A stretch of DNA of 64,000 nucleotides, from assembly GCF_032854445.1 (NCBI RefSeq), contig NC_088295.1:80068028-80132027 (forward strand). The letters are read 5' to 3'. Under the pieces are notes generated by a model. The model worked only from the letters and a program-made list of their open reading frames with translations, did not search any database and was not told the DNA's origin. A program made the translations under genes and the position numbers. Of the stretch, positions 5,736 through 64,000 are shown in pieces. Source of the DNA: Liolophura sinensis. Lineage: Eukaryota; Mollusca; Polyplacophora; Chitonida; Chitonidae. Position 1 is the stretch's first letter. Each line of letters opens with the position of its first letter.

Positions 5736-8700
5736 ATGATCAGGCTGGGACTGCTGGTGGCATTACTTGCCTTCACCACAGTTGTCGCCGGTAAGATACC
5801 GTCTTGTCCATCGATCATTATCTTGTAGATCTTTGATTTTAACTCTTTGAAATATAATAAAATGGAACTTAAATATTTAAGTTAAATATTTACTTCTAGT
5901 ATCATGCATTTGCAACTTTTAAATGTCATTAAGTTTATTATTGTCTCGTTAAAATTCACCGCGAGTTGCGGAATAAAATGTCTTGAGGCTATGTAATAGT
6001 GCCAAATATCACATTGTCAAAATGATGGTGCAGTTTTATGGTAAAAACTACGGGCAGGCTTGTTCCAATCTATACATTCATATAACAATTCTCAGACATA
6101 ACTTTTCAGTGTTTTCTTGTACGTTTACAAGCTGTTGATATCTCTCTGTCATGCTCATAACTTTTGTAGCAACATAGATGATGCACGTTAATCAAAATCA
6201 TTTACCGTTAAACTTGTAAATGTGTGTGTTTTACACTGGAGCGCTGTGTTACATTTTACAGTGAAACTTACTCGTAACGCAACAAACAGTTTTTACAGTG
6301 CACCTGTTCTAAACTCAGTTCTGTTGCTTCAATAATTTTGACGGACTTAAAACAAACACATTGCTTTCTAGAGGATAGCCTTTGCAGTCTCCACCAGGAT
6401 TTGTCCTGTGACCCGTTTGCTACGTGTAAAGAGGATGCTGACAGTTGGTGGTGTGAGTGTCCGGAAGGAAGCACGGGTGACGGCTTGAAGACGGGCAATC
6501 ACACCGGCTGTGTCTTTGGTAGGTCACAATTATTAGGTTATGTCATAATCAGAAACTATAGTTATAGAAAAATGTAACTATATATATATATATATATATA
6601 TATATATATATATATATATATATATATATATATATATATATAGGGGCCTCCGTGGCTCAGTCGGTTAAAGCGCTAGCGCAGCGTAATGACCCAGGAGTCT
6701 CTCACCAATGCGGTCGATGTGAGTTCAAGTCCAGCTCAAGCTGGCTTCCCCTCTGGCCGTACGTGAGAAGGTCTGTCAACAACCTGCGGATGGTCGTGGG
6801 TTTCCCCCGGGCTCTGCCCGGTTTCCACCCACCATAATGCTGGCCGCCGTCGTATAAGTGAAATATTCTTGAGTACGGCGTAAAAACCAATCAAAAAAAA
6901 AATATATATATATATATATATATATATATATATATATAATATGTAGCATGAGAAAATTATGAATATACGATAATTAGACAGTATCCTCTTAGTCATAGCC
7001 GCAAGTGGTATAAATGTAAATTTAAATTCTGGTTGTACACCATAGTAAAAAAAAAGTATCACCTGAAGTTATAATAACCCAAAGGCCTCTCACCAATGCG
7101 GTCGCTGTGAGTTCAAGTCCAGCTCATACTGGCTTCCTCTCCAGCTGTACGTGGGAAGGTCCTGCAGCAACCTGCGGATGGTCGTGGGTTTCCCCGGGGT
7201 CTCCCCGGTTCCCTCTCACCATAATGCTGGCCACCGTCGTATAAGTGAAATATTCTTGAGTACGGCGTAAAACACTAATCAAATAAATAAATAATTCGAT
7301 AAATAATTTCTAAAAATAGGTTATTTGATTTTTCCTTAAAGAGATGAACTGTCATAGTTTTGAACGAAGATGTGGTTAAAGAAAACGCTATTTTCGTGTT
7401 TATTAAAAGCAATTTCACGATGTCTCACTACTGGGCTAAACCATGAGAGCTACATTAGTTTAATAGGCCCCCAGCTAAAAAATAGCACAGGAACTTTTCT
7501 AGAATGAAAACGTCAGTTCTTTTCTTCAAGAATTTGGGACCAGTTGTTCAAGAGCGTATTAAAGTTTATTCCAGGTTTAAATGTTAATACCAGTTTAATC
7601 CCAATGTAAAACACATGGTACTTTTGTCTGGCCTAAAGTTAATAACAGGATTACGCCCTAATAAACTTTTTTAACAACTTGACCGTGACTTATATTGACA
7701 TATGAAACTGTCATGAAGTTAACGTTTTGTGAATAACCCTGTCTATATTTGCTCTGTGTCGCCAGAGAAAACCCCGTGCGTCTTGGATAATGAGTGTCAC
7801 ATATATGGATACTGTGCCGTGGAGGATGGTTCTGTGTGTCACTGTAAGGAAGGCTACGCTGGGGATGGATTCAGATCCTGTGAAGGTAAGAATTAGTCAG
7901 GGTTACGAATTCACTGTCTCCGTAAATATCCAGTACCTGTGTAAAATTAACAAACGTGAGTCTTGCAAACCAACAGACAATCCCAAATCGATTTCTGATT
8001 TTCTTATTTTTCAGAATCTTACCACAAAAGATATAAAATGAACCACAAAAAATTAATTCTGTTAATTAATGAAATAGTAGATTTTGCCAGTTCATTTTGT
8101 CTGCTCCAAGTTACGGTTGACTTGAATGAATTTCACTCTAATCAGATGGATGGCAGTTATCGACTTTAATGATATTATTAAACTTACAGGGATGGGCGTT
8201 TGTTGTTTGCCCCTTACGTATAAATACAAATTTTATTTTATATGTTTATTCATTGTATGATGGCGGCCACTTTCATGAGTATTCGTCGAAAACCACCGAC
8301 CTTTGGCAAGTTATTTTAGCAAGCCTGTAAATAATTAAACTAAGATTTTATGAAGTTTAGACTCAGTAGGCCAAACGCTATTGATATTCGTTGCCCATTG
8401 TTCCATTATGAAATCTCAAATACACATGTGTGTATTATAATGTTTGCAACACGTGTCCACTTCGTATTGACATGGGCTGTCAGTTTGGTTGTTTGGGTCT
8501 TATGACCTATAGAACCCTATCACTGACATATATACAGCCATGATGAGGGTGCCACATGTTACTGTTGACTGTACAGACAATACAGGGACTATACATGCCT
8601 GGTCAGCCCACATAAAAACACCTAGGTTAATGTCATCGGTAAGTTGATCCTATCGATCATGACTCTGTTGAATTGAATACAAATTCGAAATTAAGGTTCG

Positions 8701-63504: not shown

Positions 63505-64000
63505 CTGGCAAACAGAGAGAAACAAAAGATAACCACAAAACAGTATGATTGCTTCCACACATCATGAGCTGGACGGTCACCCGTCAACAAAATGTAGTCA
63601 ACCTGACAAACGGAGAAAAACAAAAGATAACCACAAAACAGTACGATTGCTTCCACAAATCATGCGCTGGAAGGTCACCCACCCACAAAATGTAGTCAAA
63701 CTGACAAAAAGAGAAAAAAAAAAGATAACCACAAAACAGTATGATTGCTTCCACACATCCTGAGCTGGACGGTCACCCATCCACAAAATGTAGTCAAACT
63801 GGCAAACAGAGAAAAACAAAAGATAACCACAAAACAGTATGATTGATTCCACACATCATGAGCTGGAAGGTCACCCGTCAACAAAATGTAGTCAAATTGG
63901 CAAACAGAGAAAAACAAAAGATAACCACAAAACAGTATGATTGATTCCACACATCCTGAGCTGGACGGTCACCTGTCCACAAAATGTAGTCAAATTGGCA
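63450..64000. repeat. 98-bp tandem array made of the SMPD1 exon start and its acceptor
   Basis: The marker TGTAGTCAA lies at 63495, 63593, 63691, 63789, 63887 and 63985, exactly 98 nt apart, and the array may continue past the window. Each unit holds about 53 nt of coding exon (encoding the F-D-Y-I-L-W-T-G-D segment through D-V-W) and about 45 nt of upstream intron with its pyrimidine tract. Only the first unit (63504 and below) continues into the rest of the exon. Units 1 to 4 keep CAG at the acceptor. Units 5 and 6 read CAA and have lost it. Confidence 0.93.

Follow-up and report, generated by a model that had tools for sequence, protein, structure and literature searches.

In 1995 Turri et al. 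(Nucleic Acids Res 23:1854) reportedly described a minisatellite in human IFI6 (6-16) that supplies multiple splice donors. The accessible text on this gene presents the repeat units of the minisatellite as multiple splice donors (PMC4526556). As far as that text goes, the IFI6 units are reported as used donors, whereas in the chiton genes analysed here the repeated sites are candidate splice sites, acceptors besides donors. In human segmental duplications, the available part of a second study describes internal tandem repeats at exon-intron boundaries and counts 27 intron modifications after manual checking (PMC2812944). Our arrays resemble those cases, as that part presents them, in being defined by TRF and lying on exon-intron boundaries; however, the human cases are RNA-supported, vary in copy number and belong to recent primate paralogues, whereas ours occur in single genes, are placed on gene models and keep their copies on the intron side. 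In potato, according to the portion of the report available, a duplication across an exon-intron boundary made a new intron, and the models of Rogers 1989 and Hellsten 2011 are cited there, in which tandem duplication that includes the boundary duplicates the splice signals (PMC4974935). The likeness to these intron-gain proposals, within that portion, lies in the tandem duplication of an intron-exon boundary together with its splice signals. Unlike the potato case as described there, the chiton models contain no new intron or exon, and the copies lie within an existing intron. Splice-site-bearing minisatellites are already known; the present analysis adds how many of them a single invertebrate-like genome contains, and that acceptors are included. 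The titles and abstract openings of the open-licence literature searched stated no genome-wide enrichment of minisatellites at splice sites.

Gene models in the window

The window, by which we mean the whole 64,000-nucleotide stretch analysed, consists of animal-like DNA with a GC content of 0.35-0.47 in 4-kb steps. Two sets of predicted exons are considered here:

5736..48322, plus strand: gene 1, a predicted secreted multidomain gene of 51 exons (EGF, COLFI-like, VWD, TIL, TSP1), from a dynamic-programming model and Pfam
63335..63504, minus strand: SMPD1 exon, the first 53 nt of which are contained in an array unit

The gene 1 model was built from splice-site and codon scores, with repeat positions unused. 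Its 51 exons keep 2657 codons open and its 50 introns total 34,613 nt (median 452 nt); Pfam recovers EGF, COLFI, VWD, TIL and TSP1 domains, and the exon numbering agrees with that of the original prediction. Two corrections were made by hand: an exon missed by the program, exon 36, was inserted, and exon 11, which the program had started at 18057 inside an array, was made to start at 18603, the last repeat copy. A domain-plus-phase rule gave identical ends for 9/9 EGF exons found, exons 4 and 42 included, a check that is not fully independent because the rule shares the splice matrices and its profile derives from seven EGF peptides of the window. The SMPD1 exons occupy the minus strand between 63504 and about 55,700. 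Joined and translated, they match acid sphingomyelinase 5i81 with an E of 8.3e-101, and the exon at the repeated junction is alignable to human ASM.

Default TRF yielded 22 merged arrays of period >=8 in the window; arrays of period <8 were omitted from this list, and low-complexity matches were dropped from the junction counts. Rfam and tRNA scans of the window gave no match. Intron 2 of gene 1 holds two copies (6684-6885 and 7072-7272) of what we label a putative tRNA-like SINE, which begins GGCCTCCGTGGCTCAGTCGGTTAAAGCG, and fragments with similar translated open reading frames lie near 29560, 33740, 50800, 55450 and 61600.

Arrays at the junctions of gene 1 and SMPD1

Each gene 1 junction, taken as 25 nt of exon plus 12 nt of intron, was scored against its own intron and against other introns, and the scores were compared with 300 shuffles. 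On the donor side the following features were found:

10445..11736, plus strand: 49-bp array in intron 4, unit resembling the exon 4 donor boundary at 10140-10170
13353..13529, plus strand: 27-bp array, first base exactly at the exon 7 donor GT
40105..40201, plus strand: three 32-bp copies across the exon 42 donor (40109), unit holding 5 nt of exon
43607..44068, plus strand: 28-bp array, which the relaxed TRF run starts 4 nt past the donor of exon 48 (43602)
21508..21755, plus strand: weak match spanning the donor of exon 17 (21535), not significant

The best of the 49-bp units at exon 4 agrees with 25/31 bases of the boundary (25 nt of exon plus 6 nt of intron) and the remaining units listed match 20-23 of 31; the array proper begins 283 nt downstream of the donor, and the junction score was reached by 0/300 shuffles. 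The corresponding figure is 1/300 for exon 7 and 0/300 for exon 42, where the unit begins 5 nt inside the exon and reads TGATG followed, from the donor onward, by GTGAGT. Next to the exon 8 donor, a degenerate GATTGAATGAGTGGAT array at 14344-15062 begins 12 nt past the site in the relaxed TRF run and has a sense-strand GC skew of +0.79; no junction copy was found in it.

On the acceptor side, and among arrays that serve for contrast, gene 1 contains:

16363..18611, plus strand: 46- and 42-bp arrays of similar unit that occupy the greater part of intron 10 and run 9 nt into exon 11 (acceptor set at 18603)
20582..20636, plus strand: 20-nt stretch present twice next to the acceptor of exon 15 (20615), beginning 2 nt inside the exon; 0/300 shuffles
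24011..24094, plus strand: 20-nt stretch present twice, across the acceptor of exon 22 (24085); 0/300 shuffles
32160..33122, plus strand: 68-bp array in intron 35, stopping 20 nt before the exon 36 acceptor (33143)
37282..38573, plus strand: 31-bp array in the middle of intron 40, a contrast case with no junction link

The 42-bp unit at exon 11 ends in TGTAG and, across the junction, CCGAGACCC, so that 9 nt of exon are included (0/300 shuffles). In the 18 units examined, the exon variant CCGAGA occurs in the two exon-adjacent units and in one near the far end, while the 13 between carry CCCAAA; exon variants at the ends with like units between fit an ancestral junction variant and the common course of a minisatellite. 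This was the one array in which inner homogenisation of the copies was examined. The 18 register positions nearest the exon comprise 13 AG, the real one included, and 5 TG, the latter being sites inactivated in copies that end in TGTTG. Between 17973 and 18435 copies with TGTAG and TGTTG ends roughly alternate, giving a higher-order unit of about 84 bp. The exon 22 duplication is absent from the original prediction. The intron 35 array was considered as an eighth case and rejected, as it ends 20 nt short of the acceptor, its last part is only loosely alignable to the acceptor region and 262/300 shuffles reach the score.

The SMPD1 gene contributes one junction array and one contrast array:

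63452..64000, minus strand: 98-bp array containing the SMPD1 acceptor and 53 nt of exon, running about 290 nt past the window end
57076..60900, minus strand: 45-bp array with 85 copies, inside an SMPD1 intron and some 70 nt away from the nearest donor; included for contrast

About 45 nt of the 98-bp unit are intron and 53 nt are exon; five intronic copies fall in the window. Variable sites number 10/53 in the exonic part, mostly amino-acid-changing, and 7/44 in the intronic part, and AG is lost in 2/5 of the intronic copies in the window. The exonic copies show no sign of coding constraint and change as freely as the intronic parts. Constraint had been considered from a raw count of 18/28 changes at third positions but was rejected, since column-wise only 4/10 variable sites are third positions. 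The 57076-60900 array is stop-free in one plus-strand frame and has 2 stops in one minus frame; these open frames look like chance from a period divisible by three.

The original prediction had listed at least seven arrays at junctions. Those at the exon 4, 7 and 42 donors and at the exon 11 and SMPD1 acceptors stand, at predicted junctions, but exon 15 has two copies only and no array, and the exon 17 score was reached by 50/300 shuffles despite a 37-nt junction-spanning match of score 24. Its further statement that an array starts within four bases of the exon 48 donor agrees with the relaxed TRF run (4 nt); in the default run the array begins 30 nt past the donor, and the junction itself is not copied in the 28-bp array (51/300 shuffles reach the score).

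Junction arrays and the chance expectation

Six of the 100 gene 1 junctions score >=24 against their own intron, compared with 0.34 expected when introns are swapped. The local copies of gene 1 junctions are real. Among genic minisatellites, 6 of the 14 counted include a junction against 2.15 expected by random founding (P 0.012). For gene 1 alone the count is 5/11 against 1.54 (P 0.011), and a test that places arrays within their own introns gives 5/13 against 1.98 (P 0.030). The list of 14 arrays was compiled by hand and counts exons 7 and 48, with 3-4 exon nt shared, as hits; the window counts are post hoc, the window having been picked since the pattern had already been noticed in it. Tests on TRF array edges depend on the overhang and tolerance (score) allowed: with default settings 2-3 of 16 arrays in the window lie at junctions (P 0.10-0.63), with strong arrays of the relaxed run 3-4 of 11 (P 0.018-0.32), and with weak arrays added 5-9 of 54 (P 0.08-0.84). 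Taken together, junction arrays exceed chance in the window weakly.

The introns of gene 1 are short (median as above), and random founding units would therefore reach about two junctions. The many junction arrays of gene 1 can be attributed to its 100 junctions in 43 kb and to a minisatellite-rich genome.

Recurrence in other EGF genes

Twenty-five stretches of 10 kb around EGF exons were sampled from the same assembly (609 Mb, 632 contigs), with junctions located by the EGF profile from the seven window peptides and a phase-1 rule. Removal of near-identical junctions and short flanks reduced 292 junctions to 256, and a second count used 335 modelled junctions; TRF arrays of period <10 were left out of the sample counts. 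In the non-redundant set, acceptors reached own-flank scores of >=24 in 6 of 170 cases against an expectation of 2.97, and donors in 2 of 86 against 0.64; 3 of these 8 were judged clean local copies. At this equal threshold the difference between gene 1 (6/100) and the other EGF genes (8/256) is not significant (P 0.23).

The 250 kb contain 30 strong arrays (score >=100), and arrays of that score cover 4.5% of the sample, which makes these genes rich in minisatellites. Junctions are spanned or abutted by five of the strong arrays, a 1.2-5-fold ratio depending on the test (P 0.02-0.43):

L021: acceptor array, 31-bp unit with 8 nt of exon, 35.8 copies (TRF), AG kept at 26/36 register positions
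L031: acceptor array with 16 nt of exon in the unit
L027: donor array of four near-identical 98-bp copies, each with 54 nt of exon, the donor and 44 nt of intron
L018 and L024: arrays abutting junctions

The original prediction had suggested testing array ends for enrichment within 10 nt of splice sites. In this sample 3 strong-array edges lie <=10 nt from a junction, where the density of the 11-800 nt zone predicts 0.57 (P 0.020); by setting, the result extends up to P 0.43. Edges from -60 to +10 of a junction number 5 against 1.93 (P 0.047). With the 335 modelled junctions, edges <=10 nt number 3 against 0.76 (P 0.042) and spanning or abutting arrays 4 against 1.85 (P 0.12); alternative settings give 4 vs 1.77 (P 0.10), 5 vs 4.31 (P 0.43), 9 vs 4.92 (P 0.063), 17 vs 11.96 (P 0.10), 3 vs 0.98 (P 0.076) and 4 vs 2.37 (P 0.22). 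L027 is missing from the 335-junction count because the model's exon end, at 4923, falls inside the array. Within C8:8840001-8880000 (L024-L027) EGF exon positions repeat at an offset of about 21.6 kb (8846445/8868014, 8847475/8869044, 8848778/8870351), and the region looks like a tandem segmental duplication.

Acceptors were also searched genome-wide. The EGF acceptor motif, YAG followed by AYATHGAYGARTGY, occurs 447 times in the genome, compared with 7 occurrences of the reversed pattern. Arrays were marked by tandem pairs of the motif core with periods of roughly 18-48, and three EGF-motif loci were recovered:

C1:94349366: one tandem pair
C1:94365058-94366617: 43 bp, 14 pairs
C8:54160525-54162379: 41-bp array of about 45 units, with 39 exact tandem pairs among the matches listed

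The same core-pair search returned three further loci without the EGF motif, and a scrambled motif of the same composition returned five unrelated loci in the first gap range; in the next gap range neither of two matches is, by reading, an added EGF-motif array. Reversed-pattern controls also yield pairs, 49 in each of two gap ranges. Unrelated minisatellites of 33-45 bp were hit by the controls at C1:93043677-93043928, C3:9294183-9294260, C10:664757-664948 and C12:18517345-18517461. After subtraction of some 57 array copies from the 447 occurrences, and with 79/100 CAG among the matches listed, we estimate about 300 unique CAG-type EGF acceptors; composition gives an estimated 286 or so chance single sites per control motif, controls that include intergenic DNA. 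On these estimated denominators 3/about 300 EGF acceptors (about 1.0%) lie in arrays versus 8/about 572 controls (about 1.4%; Fisher P 0.76). These small motif counts argue against a strong hotspot at acceptors when the genome average is taken as the reference. The original view that random minisatellite birth would seldom pick junctions is thus too strong: about 2.1 of 14 arrays are expected at junctions by random founding, and the motif test finds no excess of EGF acceptors.

Probable founding duplications and alternative explanations

In the units read, exon is contiguous with the adjoining intron and exon is never joined to exon, which indicates duplication of DNA (or of unspliced sequence) and argues against reverse-transcribed spliced RNA. 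Exonic sequence and the splice site of the adjoining exon are part of the unit at exons 4, 11 and 42, at SMPD1 and at L021, L027 and L031, while at exons 7 and 48 and at L018 and L024 the array only abuts the site, with little or no exon in the unit. Founding breakpoints are scattered from 0 to 54 nt inside exons and are not piled at GT or AG. The exon overhangs of the 8 spanning or abutting arrays lean small (KS P 0.055); either exon-level selection or attraction to the junction may lie behind this. Measured in the transcribed sense, GC skew spans -0.47 to +0.58 for junction arrays and -0.32 to +0.79 for others. The sign is positive in 4 and negative in 2 of the 6 junction arrays, and an R-loop skew was rejected since no consistent sign emerges. 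The suggestion in the original prediction of a mechanism tied to transcription or splicing is, with scattered breakpoints, inconsistent skew and no exon-exon units, unsupported. Of the options it offered, tolerance of duplicated splice sites is the one that fits, with copies that lie on the intron side and decay.

By period (10-100 bp), head-to-tail arrangement and diverging copies these are ordinary minisatellites, and the gene 1 model requires no new intron or exon, the copies staying inside existing introns. We consider it probable that they are ordinary intronic minisatellites in which the tandem duplication at their origin by chance took in, or lay directly against, an exon-intron boundary and the copies were tolerated. 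In such a course of events, a DNA-level duplication of about 25-100 bp would copy an exon end with its adjoining intron. The extra copies would lie on the intron side and be spliced out as intron, and this placement would account for their tolerance, as neither the reading frame nor the real splice site, outermost as first donor or last acceptor, is disturbed. The arrays would then expand and homogenise while their exonic parts decay. An intron-side-only position is also what purifying selection on the exon would be expected to leave. We infer that the outermost site is the one used and that the duplication step took this form.

A modest local bias towards junctions, as suggested by the window excess (6/14), the 4-5-fold edge density in other EGF genes and the small-overhang lean, may accompany this process. 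A stronger proposal is that splice junctions are local hotspots for minisatellite birth, through their sequence (GTRAGT, pyrimidine tract) or through chromatin and transcription (R-loops, exon-edge stalling). The 2.5-3-fold excess in the window, the 1.2-5-fold ratio at other loci and the 6/100 locally duplicated junctions against 0.34 favour such hotspots, but significance is marginal and varies with overhang and score (P 0.02 to 0.84 in the window, P 0.04 to 0.43 elsewhere), breakpoints lie away from the junction, GC skew overlaps between junction and other arrays, and the genome-wide motif test finds no excess; we therefore regard a hotspot as unlikely. Equally doubtful, in our estimation, is the wider claim that minisatellites arise at junctions 3-5 times as often as elsewhere in introns, with transcribed exon edges promoting tandem duplication and introns continually loaded with copies of their own splice sites.

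The arrays might instead supply alternative splice sites that are used, as decoys or in-frame extensions, and kept by selection, comparable to what is reported of the human IFI6 minisatellite. The exon 11 array lends itself to this idea in that its period of 42 equals 14 codons, the exon frame holds 1 stop in 252 codons, AG stands at 13/18 register positions and the gene program's first acceptor lay inside the array; in addition, 3/5 SMPD1 copies have a higher acceptor score than the real acceptor and the third copy at exon 42 equals the real donor in donor score. However, chance alone predicts few stops in the exon 11 frame (mean 0.50, P(0)=0.60), substitutions at codon positions 1, 2 and 3 number 29, 22 and 7, the opposite of coding constraint, and TG occupies 5/18 register positions. 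A coding function of the exon 11 array was rejected on its chance-level openness and on substitutions that fall mainly at first and second codon positions. As read from the sequence, the 27-bp unit at exon 7 carries an in-frame TGA and use of the third exon 42 donor would shift the frame. Selected use of the repeated sites is, on balance, quite improbable. An artefact of gene models or post hoc choice is very improbable: the junctions come from gene models, the pattern was a retrospective observation, there are no arrays at exons 15 and 17 and the exon 11 acceptor was set by hand, but the domain-plus-phase rule gave the same ends for 9/9 EGF exons, 2657 codons are open, the SMPD1 exon aligns to human ASM and the pattern recurs in fresh loci.

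Ordinary intronic minisatellites founded across or beside exon-intron boundaries thus probably account for the junction arrays of this genome. The L021 and L027 arrays and the candidate acceptor array at C8:54160525-54162379 are natural tests of spliceosome choice among identical sites. Were the local bias to hold across the genome, exon edges would be tied to tandem duplication, which figures as a step in routes proposed for intron gain.
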